Of a stretch of DNA of 64,000 nt, positions 40,256 through 48,387 are shown piece after piece. Within the stretch, counting starts at the first letter, position 1, and each line of letters begins with the position of its first letter. Both the position numbers and the translations under genes were made by a program. The notes beneath the pieces were generated by a model. That model ran no database searches. It had not been told where the DNA came from and was given only the letters and a program-made list of their open reading frames with translations. This stretch comes from Woeseia oceani (GTDB taxonomy: Bacteria > Pseudomonadota > Gammaproteobacteria > Steroidobacterales > Woeseiaceae), in assembly GCF_001677435.1 (NCBI RefSeq), contig NZ_CP016268.1, positions 62,001-126,000 of the forward strand. Reading direction: 5' to 3'.

Positions 40256-41898
<1,643 letters not shown>

Positions 41899-41902
<4 letters not shown>

Positions 41903-42633
41903 ACGGGACGAGCATGAATTGCGAAAGCTACAGACAGGCAATTGCGGAAGATCCGTCGGAGTCATTCGGCGGTGGCGCTTTGCATGCTGAGTCTTGTGCG
42001 TCGTGCCGTGCGGCCCGCGATGAACTGCAAGCGCTGGATCGGCGTATCGCCGCGGCTCTCAATATCCCTGTACCGGCGCTGGAACTGCCCGAATTGCCCG
42101 AGCCGGAGGTTGCCGCCAGCGTGAGCACGCTGCCGCAACGCCGCCGGATGAGCACGCCGACATGGTTTGGTATGGCGGCCGGAATAGCCCTGGCGGCCTA
42201 TTTTGGTCTGCAGGCACTGGCACCGGATGTCCCGCCGTTGTCGTTGGCCGACCAGGTTGTCGCTCACCTGGACCACGAGGCTGGTTCGCGGGTTATCAGC
42301 AACGATCCGGTGTCGGAACGAACCTTGAACAGCGTGGTCAGTAAAGAAGTGGTCCAAATGAGCCCGGGGATAGGGCTGATCACGTACGCACGCAGCTGTG
42401 AAATCAACGGCAGAATCATTCCACATCTGGTTATTCAGGGGGAGCGCGGCCCGGTAACCTTGCTGCTGCTGCCGGACGAACCGATCGATGGCCCGATTCC
42501 ACTTACAGGTCGCTCCATCAACGGTGTCATTCTCCCGCTCGGGGAGGGCAGCATCGCTATCATTGGCGTCAGTGACGAGCGAATTGACGACGTCAGTCAC
42601 CGTGTTATCGACTCAGTGAAATGGTCAACCTGA
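41899..42633 (+). CDS. Membrane-anchored anti-sigma factor (DUF3379-like)
   Basis: 244 residues. The N-terminal cytoplasmic part contains the zinc-type motif LHAESCASCRAARDELQAL (His-x3-Cys-x2-Cys), as in ZAS anti-sigma domains, then one transmembrane helix (PTWFGMAAGIALAAYFGLQAL, about residues 88-110) and a periplasmic domain of some 130 residues matching DUF3379. The periplasmic part includes EVVQMSPGIGLITYARSCEINGRI and ends with the VIDSVKW segment. It would bind the ECF sigma factor and release it on a periplasmic signal. ATGA overlap with the sigma gene. There are 100 nt between its stop and the hvfA-like gene, with two hairpins in the gap. Confidence 0.85.
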
Positions 42634-42666
42634 GGTGATCCGATTCGCTGAGAGGCAAACAACGTA

Positions 42667-42708
42667 AAGCCCGATTCTGGGCTTAAGCATGATGCCCGGC
42701 CTGGGCAT
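42667..42708 (+). promoter_or_regulatory. Two tandem hairpins in the leader of the HvfA-like gene
   Basis: Hairpin A: AAGCCC (42667-42672), loop GATTCT, GGGCTT (42679-42684). Hairpin B: ATGCCC (42692-42697), loop GGCCT, GGGCAT (42703-42708). Both share a GCCCG..CTGGGC core, so they are related palindromes spaced seven bases apart. They end 25 bp before the start of the HvfA-like gene. They could be operator sites of a dimeric regulator or an attenuator. Confidence 0.5.
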
Positions 42709-42733
42709 GTAAACCAGAGGTAGGAGATTAGAA

Positions 42734-43258
42734 ATGTCGAACAAGCAAATAGCGAAACCTGTTGCACTGGCCGTTGGCGCGGCTCTGGCCGGATCGTTCG
42801 CATTCGCCAGCGTTGCCAATGCTGAAACCGGCGCCAGCCCGTTCGCAATGCAGACGCTGAGCGCCGGTTACATGCTGGGCGCCGGTGAGGGCAGTTGTGG
42901 CGAAGGCAAGTGCGGCGGCGACAAGGGCGATAAGAATGCTGAAGGCAGCTGCGGCGGTGACAAAGAAAAGGGCGCCGAAGGCAGTTGCGGCGGTGACAAG
43001 GAAAAAGGCGCCGAAGGCAGCTGTGGCGGTGACAAGGAAAAAGGTGCTGAAGGCAGTTGCGGCGGTGACAAGGAGAAAGGCGCTGAAGGCAGCTGCGGCG
43101 GTGACAAGGAAAAAGGCGCCGAAGGCAGTTGCGGCGGTGACAAGGAAAAAGGCGCCGAAGGCAGCTGTGGCGGTGACAAGGAAAAAGGTGCCGAAGGTAG
43201 CTGTGGCGGTGACAAGGAAAAAGGCGCTGAAGGCAGCTGCGGCGGCAAGAAAGAATAA
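42734..43258 (+). CDS. HvfA-like RiPP metallophore precursor with expanded EGSCGG repeats
   Basis: 174 residues. A signal peptide (cleavage after VANA, residue 30) is followed by SPFAMQTLSAGYML (35-48), the leader typical of HvfA/bufferin-type precursors, then GEGSCGEGKCGG (51-62) and eight exact copies of the 12-residue unit EGSCGGDKEKGA (70-165), ending EGSCGGKKE. In known HvfA peptides, Cys in EGKCG motifs are turned into oxazolone/thioamide groups by an MNIO (DUF692) enzyme with a DUF2063-type partner, giving copper-binding peptides; that is family knowledge. Here one motif is EGKCG and the other ten Cys lie in EGSCG form, 11 in all. No MNIO or partner gene is in the window. TAGGAG stands 7 nt before the ATG; a strong terminator follows. 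Confidence 0.85.
   Translation: MSNKQIAKPVALAVGAALAGSFAFASVANAETGASPFAMQTLSAGYMLGAGEGSCGEGKCGGDKGDKNAEGSCGGDKEKGAEGSCGGDKEKGAEGSCGGDKEKGAEGSCGGDKEKGAEGSCGGDKEKGAEGSCGGDKEKGAEGSCGGDKEKGAEGSCGGDKEKGAEGSCGGKKE
42941..43228 (+). repeat. Eight tandem 36-bp units inside the HvfA-like gene
   Basis: Eight 36-bp units code for identical 12-residue repeats, but codons differ silently (AGC/AGT for Ser, TGC/TGT for Cys, GCC/GCT for Ala). Units 2 and 6 are identical in DNA, and units 3 and 7 differ only in the last codon (GCT vs GCC), which suggests a past duplication of a block of about four units. The lack of amino-acid change indicates selection on the repeat peptide; copy number may vary among strains. 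Confidence 0.95.
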
Positions 43259-43316
43259 GCGGCCAACAGCCCTTATAGCAGATCGGTCTAACGACCTGAT
43301 CGGCGCATAAAGCCTG

Positions 43317-43347
43317 AAAAGCCCGCGGAGTACCGCGGGCTTTTTTT
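43317..43347 (+). terminator. Intrinsic terminator after the HvfA-like gene
   Basis: GCCCGCGG (43321-43328) and CCGCGGGC (43333-43340) form a perfect 8-bp GC stem with an AGTA loop, preceded by AAAA and followed by seven T (43341-43347). It marks the end of the sigma/anti-sigma/hvfA-like unit, so the following tag gene is transcribed on its own. A weaker dyad (GATCGGTC..GACCTGATC, 43281-43301) lies between stop codon and terminator. Confidence 0.93.
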
Positions 43348-43512
43348 CCGTTGCTGAGTTGCAGGTGAATGTCGCTGACCCGCCGCCAGGTCGCATTGGC
43401 GTCATGCAAGACGGCAAAACTGTGCACCCTGCGCACATACTCGACGTGGGCGGTCAAACCCGGCACTGCTAGAATTCGGCTTTCCCGTAGTCCTGATCAG
43501 GGTCTCTGCGCA

Positions 43513-44117: not shown

Positions 44118-45040
44118 CGGCTGCTCGCCAACCCTGGCATCGTGAAGCCCTGTGCTTCGAGAGCGGCGATAAGCCCGCGGTAGTCCTTGTTATCGAGGCT
44201 TAACAGGGGCGGACGCACCGTGCGCCACTCCGGTTTGCCGCTGTAGTGCGCCACAATCGCTTTCAAAGCGGGGATCATCGCCTTCTGCTGCACGATGCCA
44301 CGCAGGTCTGCAAGGGCCTGTTGCTTCGCGTCGGCGTCGGCTGACTGCCAGTTGCGGTACAGATCGACTATTGCCGCTGGATTTACATTGGCCGTCGCGG
44401 ATATGCAGCCCGCACCGCCGGCCCGCATGTTGTTGAGCAACAAGGTTTCCGTGCCGACAAAGATCTGAAAATCGTCCCATTGCCGTTCATGCATCAAAGC
44501 GGCATTGGCCCAGTCACCTGAGCTGTCCTTGATGCCGGCGACAGTGCCCGGGTAGTCGCGCAGCAGGCGCTCGATGAGGTCCAGACTGATGCTGACCTGC
44601 GCCACCGGCGGGATGTGATAGAGATACACGCGAAGCCTTTCGTCGCCGACCCGCTGAATGATCTCGGAATAGTTTCTGTAGAGTGCATCGTCGCCAACGC
44701 CCTTGTAGTAAAACGGGGGCAACATCAGTGTGCCCGCGCAGCCCAGTTTGGCGGCAGCGCGCGTCAGTGCCACGGAATCCGGTAAGGCGCAGCAGCCTGT
44801 TCCGGGCATCATTCTCGAGGTGTCGATACCGGCGTCAACCAGCGCTTCCAGCAGCTCGATTTTTTCCGCGACTGACAGCGAATTTGCTTCGCTGTTAGTG
44901 CCGAAAACAGCAAGACCGGTGTCTTGCGACAGCAACCAGCGACATTGCTGCACGAGAGCGTCGGCATCGACGCTCAAATCAGCGCGAAAGGGGGTGACTA
45001 CCGGCGAAAGTACGCCGGACATTCCTGTTTTCGGGTTCAT
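44114..45040 (-). CDS. Dihydrodipicolinate synthase/N-acetylneuraminate lyase family protein
   Basis: 308 residues, TIM-barrel class I lyase. Schiff-base Lys171 is in VAGIKDSSG and the catalytic Tyr141 in VYLYHIPP; the pyruvate-carboxylate loop reads FGTNSEANSLS where DapA has GTTGE, so the pyruvate-binding loop differs and the enzyme is more likely a 4-hydroxy-2-oxoglutarate, KDG- or other keto-acid aldolase than the lysine enzyme. Its ATG (45040) overlaps the stop of the upstream subtilase gene by one base (TAATG), so it is translated by coupling after a large secreted protease. Terminator at 44094-44117. Substrate unresolved. Confidence 0.85.
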   Translation of the reverse strand: MNPKTGMSGVLSPVVTPFRADLSVDADALVQQCRWLLSQDTGLAVFGTNSEANSLSVAEKIELLEALVDAGIDTSRMMPGTGCCALPDSVALTRAAAKLGCAGTLMLPPFYYKGVGDDALYRNYSEIIQRVGDERLRVYLYHIPPVAQVSISLDLIERLLRDYPGTVAGIKDSSGDWANAALMHERQWDDFQIFVGTETLLLNNMRAGGAGCISATANVNPAAIVDLYRNWQSADADAKQQALADLRGIVQQKAMIPALKAIVAHYSGKPEWRTVRPPLLSLDNKDYRGLIAALEAQGFTMPGLASSR

Positions 45041-48000
45041 TAGTTCCGTACGCTGATTACCGTAATGCCAACAAGCCCCTCCGGCGTGTTGTGCGAGATT
45101 CCGCCCAGATAAATGGTGCCGGACAGCAGGTTGCTCCAGTCAACCTGGACTGTCTCCGTTGTTCCGGACGATACCGTCGCAGGTGCGGTTACGCTCATGT
45201 TGCCGGCGTTGTCATTCAGGCCGAACTGCCAGGCAACAATGTCGTATTCAGTGCCGGGCCCGCCGGTAACCTCGTCGGTTTCGAAGCCGTGCACAAATAC
45301 GACGTAGGTGCCGGCACCCGGTAACATCAGGTTGAACTGTTCATTTGAAGTGTCGTTGCCACTCTCACCGATCTTGTTGCAGTTGATGTTGTCCGGGCAA
45401 TAGTAGACGTACATGTCGAGGTCGTCGTTGCCATCCGTTAACTCATCGAACAAGGCAAAACGCAGATAGGCCTGATTGGGCGGCACGATATAGGTGTGCG
45501 CCGTGGCGCCGGCGCCTTCGTCGCTGAACTGGAAGGTCTTGTCGGGGTCAGCCTGTACGCTGCTCCTCAGTACCAGCGGCAAATTGAGGCCGTGAACGCG
45601 TGCCTCATAGGCGCCGTCGTAGCCAAACTCAACCGGGAAACTCAAAGAACCGGTACCGCCGAACGAGCCGAATTCGGTGGGTGCGGTAAGTGACACCGGG
45701 CGCACGGCAAGCGCGCTGCGTACGGCGATGTCTTCACTGTTCCAGGTCAGGCTGCCAAAGCGCCAGCTGTTCAGCGGGCCACTGGAGTAGGTATAGGTCA
45801 CTTCGAATTCTGCGCTTTCACCGGGCGCAAGACTCAATGCCTGGGGGCTTACGACCGTTTCAATACCCGATGGAGCCACAACACTGGCCGTGTAATTGCC
45901 GGCGACGTCGCTGACATTCGTCACCCGGCGGATCACTGTTTGCGAATTTGCCAGACGACCGACCGTGATTGAGGGTTGGTTCATGTCGCTGGGGTCCAGA
46001 GACACACCGGCGGTGACCAGCTCGTCGCAACGCGCTGCCGGTATGACGGGCGAGCGAATCGCGCAGCCGAACGCGTCGTAGTCATCATCGTCTGCGTCGT
46101 AGACGAGGCCGGGGTTCAGCGCCTTGTTCGGGTCGATGTGACCTGCGCCGAAATCAAACGGTATGGCCTGCGTCGTGCCCGTTGCCTGGTTGACCTCCTG
46201 GTACGCGGAGGTCATCAGGGCGGACTTGATTGCCGTCGGGCTCCACTCCGGATGGGCTTCACGCAACAGGGCCGCAATACCGGTGACATGCGGTGCTGAC
46301 ATGGACGTGCCGGTCAGAAACGCGAAGTTTTCACCGTGCACAGAGTTGATCGCGTCAGGCGTAAAGCCCGCCAGAATATTGATGCCGGGCGCGGTCACGT
46401 CGGGTTTGAGGATGTCCTGCGACGGCCCCGGACCGCGCGAGGAAAATGAACCCATGACATTGCCGTCGTCACTGACCGCGAGAAACAGTCCTTTGTCCAG
46501 CACCACCTCGACCGTTTCGCCGGCGTTAATCTCATCGAGTATGCGATTGCCGTCTGCCTGACCAATCATCAGTACCGGAATATCCACGCTGTTGGCCGCG
46601 CCGGTCATGACCGTCGGATCGCCAGCTATGTTGGCGACCAGCATGGCGATGGCGCCGGCATCTTCAACATGCGTTGCCTTGACGGTGAAGTCGCAACCGC
46701 CGCGCTGGACCAGGGCAACCTTGCCGCTGACTTCGCTGCCATTCACCAGCGGTTCGCAGGCATCGAAGGTTGTGCCGCTGACGCCGCCTTCCAGTGTGTT
46801 GTCGTCGTCATCAACCAGTACAAGATCTTCTTCGATAGGGTCGTTGTCGCTGAGAGGCGCACCAAAATTGCCTTCCTTGACCGCGTACTTGCCGGCGAGT
46901 GATGCCGGTGCATCTATCTGCAAGGCTTCCAGTGAATGCTCACCTTCACGACTGGAGGCCGCCACGGTCATGACCCACGGTGCCCCGGCGGGCGAGCCTA
47001 CGGTGGCGAAATTCGGGCCTTCGTTGCCGGCGGCCACAACCGCCAGTACACCGGCTTTGGTCGCGGCCATCAGTGCCAGGTCATCGGGCGCAGTGGTTTC
47101 CTGCAGTGAGTTGCCGACGGAATAGTTAATGATGTCGACGCCATCAGCGACCGCGGTATCGATGGCCAGCGCAAGATCGGATGTATTACAGCTGGAGCGG
47201 GTTGCGCCCGGCCGCAGCCAGCACGCCTTGTAGGCGGCAACCCGGGCTCGCGGGGCCATGCCCTCGACACGGCCGAGTACCGTGCCGAAAATCCCGGCCT
47301 CCACTCGTTTGCCAGCGGCGGTGGTGGCAGTGTGGGTCCCGTGGCCATCAACGTCCCGTGCCGAGTAGATTTCACCTTCATCAATCGGGCCGGCGTTTTG
47401 CGCGCCCGCGAAAAAGTAGCGCGCACCGATCAGCTTGTTGTTGCAAAGGCTGGCATCGAATTCGGGCCCGGCTTCGCAACTGCCGTTCCAGTCTTCCGGT
47501 GGATCGTAGACAACTACGTCCGGCAGGCGGCTGAAGCGTCGGCATAGCCAGCGTCCGAGCAAGCTGTTTTTCGCCCAGGTCGACTCGCAGAGTCGTGGTC
47601 GCGGTGCCTCGCGGGTATCCGCCAGCATCGGGTGTTCGGGGGCAATGCCGCTGTCGATGACGCCGATCACCACACCTTCGCCGGTCAGCCCCAGATCACC
47701 ACGCAAACCGCCGTCCGAATCGAACAGGCCGAGAAACTCGGCGCTGTAGTTGGTCGACAACGGCCGGATTTCGTCTTCCCAGACCTGCTGCACTTCGGGA
47801 AGATTGCCCAGCTTGTTGGCCTGCGCTGGCGTCATGAGGGCGGCGAAACCGTTCAGGCTGTAGCGATAACTGTATACCTGCACGGCCCCCGGTCCGGCTT
47901 TGGCCAGCACGGACTGCTGTTCGTTGCCGAGCCGCTGCGCATAGCTTTGGACAGCCGCACTGTTCTTGTCAAAGCGGGATGGCGCAGACAATTTTCCGGA

Positions 48001-48210
48001 GCCCGCAATGCGTTGCTTGGCGTGGTAAACGGCGGCTGCGGGCTCACGAAGCTGCACGATGTACATCTTCGTGGATTGGGTATCTTCATCCGCAAAACGA
48101 AACGCGGCGACGGGGCCGCCTTCGCGCAGTTCGCTGGCGCCACCCGTTGTGAATGCGGCGGTCAGCAATACGCCACACAGGGCGGCGGCCATGGTTCGAA
48201 GTTCGCTCAC
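45040..48210 (-). CDS. Secreted subtilisin-like S8 serine protease with PA domain
   Basis: 1056 residues with a signal peptide, an I9-type propeptide (TKMYIVQLREPAAAVYHAK and the YRYSLNGFAALM region), then the catalytic domain: Asp186 in VIGVIDSGIAPEHP, His290 in DVDGHGTHTATTA, oxyanion Asn396 in VVAAGNEGPN and Ser636 in LTGTSMSAPHVTG. A protease-associated PA domain is inserted at about 450-575, and the C-terminus has Fn3-like and pre-peptidase C-type segments (including DDLDMYVYYCPD). This is the plant-cucumisin-like layout seen in marine bacteria that break down external protein. The GTG start at 48210 has AGGA 6 nt upstream; the earlier in-frame start gives a poor signal. One-base overlap with the DapA-family gene. 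Confidence 0.93.
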   Translation of the reverse strand: MSELRTMAAALCGVLLTAAFTTGGASELREGGPVAAFRFADEDTQSTKMYIVQLREPAAAVYHAKQRIAGSGKLSAPSRFDKNSAAVQSYAQRLGNEQQSVLAKAGPGAVQVYSYRYSLNGFAALMTPAQANKLGNLPEVQQVWEDEIRPLSTNYSAEFLGLFDSDGGLRGDLGLTGEGVVIGVIDSGIAPEHPMLADTREAPRPRLCESTWAKNSLLGRWLCRRFSRLPDVVVYDPPEDWNGSCEAGPEFDASLCNNKLIGARYFFAGAQNAGPIDEGEIYSARDVDGHGTHTATTAAGKRVEAGIFGTVLGRVEGMAPRARVAAYKACWLRPGATRSSCNTSDLALAIDTAVADGVDIINYSVGNSLQETTAPDDLALMAATKAGVLAVVAAGNEGPNFATVGSPAGAPWVMTVAASSREGEHSLEALQIDAPASLAGKYAVKEGNFGAPLSDNDPIEEDLVLVDDDDNTLEGGVSGTTFDACEPLVNGSEVSGKVALVQRGGCDFTVKATHVEDAGAIAMLVANIAGDPTVMTGAANSVDIPVLMIGQADGNRILDEINAGETVEVVLDKGLFLAVSDDGNVMGSFSSRGPGPSQDILKPDVTAPGINILAGFTPDAINSVHGENFAFLTGTSMSAPHVTGIAALLREAHPEWSPTAIKSALMTSAYQEVNQATGTTQAIPFDFGAGHIDPNKALNPGLVYDADDDDYDAFGCAIRSPVIPAARCDELVTAGVSLDPSDMNQPSITVGRLANSQTVIRRVTNVSDVAGNYTASVVAPSGIETVVSPQALSLAPGESAEFEVTYTYSSGPLNSWRFGSLTWNSEDIAVRSALAVRPVSLTAPTEFGSFGGTGSLSFPVEFGYDGAYEARVHGLNLPLVLRSSVQADPDKTFQFSDEGAGATAHTYIVPPNQAYLRFALFDELTDGNDDLDMYVYYCPDNINCNKIGESGNDTSNEQFNLMLPGAGTYVVFVHGFETDEVTGGPGTEYDIVAWQFGLNDNAGNMSVTAPATVSSGTTETVQVDWSNLLSGTIYLGGISHNTPEGLVGITVISVRN

Positions 48211-48387
48211 GTGATTTCCTGTTACCCGCCGCGTCGTCCGACGGGACACCAGTCTGCATGAAATGCATTGTGTAACCGCTTATTCCGCAACGAAGTTACC
48301 ACACTCATCAGGTAGTGGACAGATGGCCGGTTGCCGGCCCTGGCACCGTTCGGGCGGGACTGGTGCAGTGGCGTCCGGGCCTGTAGC

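Follow-up and report, generated by a model that had tools for sequence, protein, structure and literature searches.

An EGSCG-repeat HvfA-family precursor in a putative ECF sigma factor operon of Woeseia oceani, its unlinked hvfBCX operon and a promoter-like motif common to both

The analysed stretch of DNA (the window; 64,000 nucleotides, corresponding to C1:62001-126000 of a genome with a single contig of 4,059,891 bases) was found to encode an HvfA-family precursor in a unit with genes for an extracytoplasmic function (ECF) sigma factor and a DUF3379 protein, while the only HvfBCX set of the same genome is encoded 2.37 Mb away. At the sequence level, one precursor and one HvfBCX set are unlinked, co-occur among related genomes, share a promoter-like motif and retain a conserved gene order. 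The combined reading, which we hold to be highly probable, is that of a dispersed HvfA/captophorin-type system, matured in trans and united by one ECF regulon. The features on which this reading is based are listed in Table 1.

Table 1. Features of the window and of the distant MNIO locus (window positions, except those prefixed C1, which are contig positions).
Feature	Position	Strand	Basis or remark
Promoter-like dyad GTAATA-N16-GGTC before sigma gene	41354..41379	+	Only match in window
ECF sigma factor, 171 aa	41387..41902	+	Sigma70_r2 and r4_2; NF009170 203 bits, cut-off 197
DUF3379 protein, 244 aa, putative membrane anti-sigma factor	41899..42633	+	PF11859 93.1 bits, cut-off 33.2
Small hairpin GCCC-loop-GGGC between DUF3379 and precursor genes	42694..42706	+	Conserved in related loci
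Precursor ORF, 174 aa	42734-43258	+	Uninterrupted
Sec-type signal peptide, residues 1-30, cleavage after ANA	42734..42823	+	By eye; kept in precursor alignment
Conserved post-signal segment ETGASPFAMQTLSAGYMLGA	42824..42883	+	Alignment of 24 precursors
Eight exact EGSCGGDKEKGA repeats	42941..43228	+	36-nt period
Intrinsic-terminator-like 9-bp stem, 4-nt loop and T tract, 3' of precursor	43320..43347	+	By eye; not listed by motif scan
ORF of 1069 aa, secreted subtilisin-like serine protease	45040-48249	-	By eye
Dyad before MNIO operon	C1:2477004-2477029		GTAATA-N16-GGTC match
MNIO	C1:2477103-2477888		PF05114, E 4.6e-100
DUF2063 protein	C1:2477956-2478213		Beside MNIO

The precursor contains 11 Cys, carried by ten EGSCG motifs and one EGKCG motif, and its array comprises eight copies of a 12-residue unit that are identical at the protein level, exactly as given in the preliminary description. 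At the DNA level, the eight copies represent seven distinct versions with eight variable nucleotide positions, all of which are third codon positions, indicative of a selected coding sequence that is neither a chance nor a purely mutational product. Tandem Repeats Finder reported the array with a period of 36 (8.5 copies, score 505) and, in a second row, with a period of 108 (score 516). The leader contains the segment SPFAMQTLSAGYML, and an alignment of 24 precursors, read by eye (20 of the 48 sigma-linked precursors, i.e. this one and 19 relatives, together with four others; the row of L011 lacks the first Met) showed the Sec-type signal peptide and leader typical of the HvfA family to be conserved, with P36, F37 and Y46 of the post-signal segment being invariant.

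The earlier assignment as an HvfA-type precursor was supported by the leader and by the NCBIfam domain model NF050137 (KCGExKCG_twice; 27.6 bits, above its cut-off of 19.5, at residues 52-77), which NCBIfam describes as 'HvfA family oxazolone/thioamide-modified RiPP metallophore'. The protein scored below the cut-off of the HvfA equivalog NF050188 (14.8 against 95 bits), so that the strict label 'HvfA' does not apply; the four other precursors scanned with this model (L008, L009, L016 and L049) also scored below 95 bits, the best reaching 79.5. A Pfam search of the precursor protein gave no match, and its AlphaFold2 model exhibited no fold (mean pLDDT 45.9) and no visible beta-helix.

The precursor had been described as an orphan, for which any modifying enzymes would have to act in trans. 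The first part of this description is correct as far as the neighbourhood is concerned, since the window encodes neither an MNIO nor a DUF2063 protein; true orphan status is ruled out by the single MNIO and single DUF2063 matches found in a profile search of the same genome, and the precursor gene comes third in a conserved sigma-DUF3379-precursor unit. The RiPP reading had also been made dependent on the presence of an MNIO in the genome, where one was indeed found. The gene order at the distant locus is nth (a name that we presume from its protein sequence), DUF1841, MNIO, DUF2063 and DoxX. The last three products pass the HvfB (418.7 bits, cut-off 360), HvfC (301.8 bits, cut-off 142) and HvfX (231.6 bits, cut-off 80) equivalogs, respectively, and the genome thereby encodes the cognate HvfB enzyme and HvfC partner of the HvfA family. 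The best solved relative of the MNIO is 3bww, which is 72.4% identical to HvfB in the available part of the Haemophilus report (PMC13419390).

No EGxCG ORF was found among the ORFs of the MNIO locus, in contrast to one-operon HvfABCX systems in which the precursor gene adjoins that of the MNIO, and NF050137 matched a single ORF in the genome, namely the precursor, which has no paralogue by this model. As the sole hvfBCX set, complete apart from a precursor gene, lies 2.37 Mb away, modification, if any, must occur in trans, in agreement with the earlier proposal. The BufA2 profile had no match in this genome and the DUF2282 profile none over the cut-off (13.1 against 22.4 bits), leaving the MNIO with no other known substrate.

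The co-occurrence of precursor and enzyme was assessed in 60 genomes, including that of W. oceani, which were searched with NF050137, PF05114 and PF11859, after which loci were fetched and their ORFs read. HvfB-type MNIOs, defined by at least 58% identity to the W. oceani MNIO, were present in 41 genomes. A precursor was found in 38 of these as opposed to none of the 19 remaining genomes (Fisher P=7.5e-13, which overstates the association because the genomes are related), and in 30/32 as opposed to 0/11 when only genomes at least 90% complete were counted. Eight of the 19 belong to one small-genome genus, so that the comparison comprises fewer independent events than rows, and two of the 19 (G045 and G055) possess only a divergent MNIO. 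With NF050137 (E up to 1), 38 genomes gave a match; upon reading of the loci, G056 was dropped (L054 lacks such an ORF; a second weak match was left unread) and G012 (L046), missed by the model, was added. Regex matches in L048 and L098 were set aside as chance. Absence from the 19 genomes was based on NF050137 (E up to 1), with the locus itself read in G007 and G058. An HvfB-type MNIO without a detected precursor was observed in G036 (77% complete), G053 and G056.

The physical separation of precursor and enzyme genes also recurs. Among the 41 HvfB-type MNIO loci, some of which extend only 0.7-1.2 kb upstream, the precursor gene adjoins that of the MNIO only in G050, a genome without DUF3379. 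Both genes were located on one contig only in G000 and G009, far apart in each case, and in G050; draft genomes show the split only as separate contigs and as MNIO flanks without a precursor. DUF3379 is present in 33 of the 38 precursor genomes, in 32 of which the precursor and DUF3379 HMM matches are 219-575 bases apart on one contig, the 33rd (G012) having been identified by reading of the locus. In G007 and G058, the sigma-DUF3379 pair is retained while MNIO and precursor are both absent; in G007, a homologue (by eye) of the gene located 3' of the W. oceani precursor stands 144 nt after DUF3379. We take this gene to be DNA-3-methyladenine-glycosylase-like.

These distributions bear on the proposal, also raised in the preliminary description, that the protein is an unmodified secreted Cys-repeat protein, which would bind metal via free thiols and would have retained an HvfA leader only by descent. 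The departure of EGSCG from the EGKCG consensus, the lack of nearby enzyme genes and the unfolded AlphaFold2 model would agree with such a protein, but it would leave the HvfBC pair without a recognised substrate and would not account for the lack of NF050137 matches (E up to 1) in all 19 genomes without an HvfB-type MNIO, the missing precursor at the matching place in G007, the conserved post-signal leader, or the promoter-like motif common to the precursor operon and the enzyme genes. We therefore judge an unmodified protein to be decidedly unlikely and favour the dispersed system matured in trans.

The gene order around the precursor was examined in relatives of the sigma factor, a short protein with sigma regions 2 and 4, as is characteristic of ECF factors. 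When named genomes were scanned with this protein as the query, the best 80 of 178 relatives comprised 49 loci with 65-78% identity, all from metagenome-assembled genomes labelled as Woeseiaceae or at phylum, class or order level, and 31 loci with 47-54% identity, largely of Glaciecola-/Alteromonas-type. An EGxCG ORF was present 3' of the sigma gene in 47 of the 49 close loci; the other two (L106 and L107), whose contigs end 812 and 849 bp past sigma, were set aside from this count. None of the 31 more distant loci, drawn from the same best 80, encodes an EGxCG precursor after sigma, a distribution in agreement with a host from the Woeseiaceae. The sigma-DUF3379-precursor triad, located apart from hvfBCX, thus recurs in Woeseiaceae-type genomes, with 38-97 nt between the DUF3379 stop codon and the precursor ATG (n=45). 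A chance co-occurrence, with the precursor as a remnant and HvfBC serving an unrecognised substrate, might be suspected from the three genomes that possess an MNIO without a recognised precursor; such a remnant would be at odds with the purely synonymous variation among the repeats and with the precursors found in 47/49 related sigma loci (the remaining two are truncated), and is regarded as extremely improbable.

The DUF3379 protein possesses, at the sequence level, the attributes of a membrane anti-sigma partner, i.e. a gene overlapping that of the sigma factor (its start overlaps the sigma stop by 4 nt), a predicted helix (residues 88-107, taken by eye as a membrane helix) and a zinc-type motif (H29-x3-C33-x2-C36). 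The H-x3-C-x2-C motif was observed in this protein and in 38 of 45 related DUF3379 ORFs, being absent from seven; four of the 49 and one of the 31 loci without a DUF3379 ORF in the size range are left out of these counts. The motif fits a putative metal- or thiol-sensing function, the chemistry of which is tentative in view of the seven relatives without it. The AlphaFold2 model (mean pLDDT 75.6) had no Foldseek match in the PDB at E up to 0.001, with RseB and MucB as weak partial matches, and a literature search covering few subscription journals yielded no paper on, or role for, DUF3379.

Between the DUF3379 and precursor genes, a GCCC-N3..9-GGGC element ends 20-28 nt 5' of the precursor ATG in 44/48 loci, compared with 0.3 expected from shuffled sequences. 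This hairpin, located just 5' of the precursor ribosome-binding site, may set the precursor level relative to that of the sigma and anti-sigma factors. In L103, an inverted repeat, GGTGTCAGGT...ACCTGACACC, takes the place of the usual hairpin and may represent a small mobile element. A scan of positions 41200-43500 for sigma-70-like sites gave none, a result that says little given that only 0.7 would be expected from shuffles.

The promoter-like dyad GTAATA-N16-GGTC was identified 5' of the sigma gene in 49/49 loci (48 relatives and W. oceani, L146 being excluded for having no upstream sequence; shuffles ~0.1) and 5' of the HvfB-type MNIO gene in 32/41 loci (shuffles 0.03). A spacing of 16 was observed in all 81 sites, even though 12-20 was allowed. 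In W. oceani, the dyad ends 7 nt 5' of the sigma ATG, suggesting a leaderless sigma transcript. None of the eight divergent MNIO loci has a dyad in this position, and a separate dyad directly before the precursor was rejected, as none was present in the 48 upstream stretches between DUF3379 and precursor (shuffles ~0.1). Presence of the MNIO dyad was shown to track that of DUF3379, the dyad being found in 31/33 genomes possessing DUF3379 as opposed to 1/8 genomes without it (P=1.2e-5, kinship ignored); among the nine MNIO loci lacking the dyad, two (G046 and G049) are in genomes with DUF3379. The dyad common to the sigma and MNIO operons suggests that one stress-sensing sigma factor switches both loci on. 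Among the 31 more distant loci (from the best 80 of 178 sigma relatives), the exact dyad precedes sigma in only one (L155). Many of the distant loci L152-L182 were seen by eye to carry a variant upstream motif, GAAATAA...GGTC.

The extent of the putative regulon was explored in W. oceani, where a loose form of the dyad (spacers of 14-18) gave 27 matches as opposed to 23 for the reversed control. Of these 27 sites, 12 have a spacing of 16 and four fit the tight form with flanking constraints, and this 16-nt class with flanking constraints alone stands out. A position weight matrix, the training set of which included the sigma and MNIO sites, scored these two at 23.3 and 23.2, followed by 20.3 for the site of a secreted AhpC/TSA redoxin gene, 19.2 for that of a gene encoding a small DoxX protein and 12.9 for that of a VTT/pyridine-nucleotide oxidoreductase gene; the other seven N16 sites scored 5.8 or less. 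The exact dyad was conserved at 13 of 15 redoxin orthologues of at least 54% identity, as opposed to none of 15 redoxin-like loci below 50% identity (five at 38-49% and ten below 33%). The second DoxX gene was poorly conserved, with only one counterpart (G049, 34% identity) among 39 relatives.

In five relatives with DUF3379, the tight pattern gave 27 sites as opposed to five for the reversed pattern. Targets of 21 of these sites comprised sigma (five), MNIO (five), AhpC/TSA redoxin orthologues (two), other thioredoxin-fold proteins (three), DUF547 (two), and DUF1223, DUF3179, YHS and a BufA2 bufferin precursor (one each), the redoxin, sigma and MNIO targets being recognised from their sequences. 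The other six sites precede a PLP-decarboxylase-like gene, a TPP enzyme gene and two small genes without recognisable function, or lie inside ORFs (two). The predicted theme of this putative regulon is secreted thiol and metal proteins, together with a second class of MNIO precursor in G009. The latter (L243:957-1445), a BufA2-family bufferin precursor (128.3 bits, cut-off 60), is encoded upstream of a second, divergent MNIO and has a dyad 56 nt before its ORF start.

The dyad may alternatively be the site of another regulator, in which case precursor and enzymes would cooperate while the adjacent sigma factor would not be their common switch. G054, in which a dyad stands before both the MNIO and the precursor gene but no DUF3379 was detected, and the six sites that precede unrelated or unclear genes or fall within ORFs are in line with this possibility, and the link between sigma factor and dyad is drawn from sequence. 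Another regulator would be harder to reconcile with the invariant spacing in all 81 sites, with an apparently autoregulatory position before sigma in every one of the 49 loci, and with the correlation between dyad and DUF3379. We deem it unlikely and retain the adjacent ECF factor as the probable common switch.

In the proposed mechanism, the sigma factor is expected to be held by the membrane-bound DUF3379 protein until envelope metal or thiol stress releases it. The freed sigma factor would drive its own operon, ending in the precursor gene, and the distant hvfBCX operon via GTAATA-N16-GGTC, with secreted thiol-redox proteins being induced alongside. HvfB-HvfC would oxidise the Cys residues of the EGSCG and EGKCG motifs in the cytoplasm, by analogy to 5-thiooxazole formation, and the peptide would then be exported by Sec and sequester copper, its probable ligand, in or outside the periplasm. 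A broader and rather doubtful version is that of a RiPP encoded by a regulon and not by a gene cluster, in which one sigma switch would feed precursor classes (the EGSCG type in this family, and also the BufA2 type in G009) to unlinked or separate MNIO enzymes. In this version, since the precursor is made from the operon of the putative sensor, free metal sensed by DUF3379 might be depleted by the mature peptide, which would close a feedback loop.

Comparison with known systems, based on the available parts of the cited reports, suggests a variant of these systems with dispersed genes, for which modification, ligand and inducer are proposed by analogy. HvfABCX of nontypeable Haemophilus influenzae likewise comprises a secreted EGKCG-repeat precursor, an HvfB MNIO, an HvfC partner and a DoxX-like HvfX, although there the genes form one hvf operon and the precursor has three AEGKCGEGKCG motifs (PMC13419390), in contrast to the 2.37-Mb split and mostly EGSCG core described here. 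ECF control of such operons is already known: RpoE2 of H. influenzae controls msrAB and a DoxX/COG3220/DUF2063/periplasmic-protein cluster under HOCl (PMC7907618), and SigE of Neisseria meningitidis, with MseR bearing a zinc-type motif, acts over a corresponding cluster and MsrAB (PMC2893595, PMC3240639). In Neisseria, sigma, anti-sigma and cluster constitute one operon, whereas here the enzyme genes are remote and the precursor gene belongs to the sigma operon; Haemophilus has an intact cluster separate from rpoE2, and its anti-sigma factor HrsE has 67 aa, as opposed to the 244-aa DUF3379 partner. The redox member also differs, being MsrAB in those regulons and a conserved redoxin here.

A survey of bufferins reports precursors unlinked to an MNIO, genomes in which one MNIO pair is accompanied by several precursors, and a rarity of precursors in genomes without an MNIO (PMC12452194). 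Its stand-alone bufferin and Buf_EGKCG precursors share their unlinked state with the present precursor; the available text gives sigma and NrsF genes for Buf1 clusters but mentions neither a link to DUF3379 nor a shared promoter or conserved split for EGKCG precursors. Fontiphorin and the captophorins are likewise Lys-Cys type substrates, which carry 5-thiooxazoles and bind Cu, but their genes are clustered, and the string EGSCG is absent from the available main text (PMC13097082). A literature search, in which few subscription journals were covered, found no conserved precursor-enzyme split bridged by a sigma regulon and nothing on Woeseia with DUF692; for EGSCG, the matches listed were all on other subjects by title.

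The Lys-to-Ser change in the core and the number of repeats had been considered unlike known arrays, a view that does not stand, as both were found to be common among related precursors, so that neither is special to W. oceani. Across 47 related precursors, the residue before Cys is Ser in 316 of 385 cases and Lys in 25, and the residue after it is Gly in 384, while one relative (L031) has 11 copies of a 10-residue EGSCG unit; in the sequences compared, EGSCG is a local family rule. With regard to length, Buf_EGKCG proteins reach 506 residues, the longest having 58 Cys (PMC12452194). According to the available text on FonBC, the enzyme tolerates replacement of the Lys by Ala, Arg or Thr and prefers a small residue after Cys, whereas Glu or Phe in place of Lys severely impairs processing; Ser is not among the variants it names (PMC13097082). 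By analogy with this tolerance, Ser-Cys-Gly would be a plausible substrate, although a core of one EGKCG and ten EGSCG motifs could be a poor one.

Mining of enzyme neighbourhoods would encounter the two loci separately, as an orphan precursor and as an enzyme without substrate; the promoter-like dyad joins them and may offer a route to the discovery of dispersed systems. It also predicts joint induction of precursor, enzymes and secreted thioredoxin-fold proteins by envelope copper or thiol stress. The related precursors represent a natural series of Ser-Cys cores from which acceptance by HvfB-type enzymes could be assessed, and the putative anti-sigma reading predicts a function for DUF3379 proteins.

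Additional precursors were observed in several relatives. Two EGKCG precursors (L049:2227-2853 in G040:C21 and L008:1216-1710 in G054:C48) have a C-terminal Gly-rich stretch, a hydrophobic helix and an Arg-rich tail, which we take to resemble GlyGly-CTERM sorting tags, and their sequences suggest that they are possibly surface-anchored metallophores. Dyad-like sites with scores of 16.7 and 19.5, respectively, are located ~100 bp upstream. Two second HvfA-type precursors (L009:1444-2109 in G006:C233 and L016:1282-1650 in G032:C2) have EGACGEGSCG cores, another leader and no dyad.
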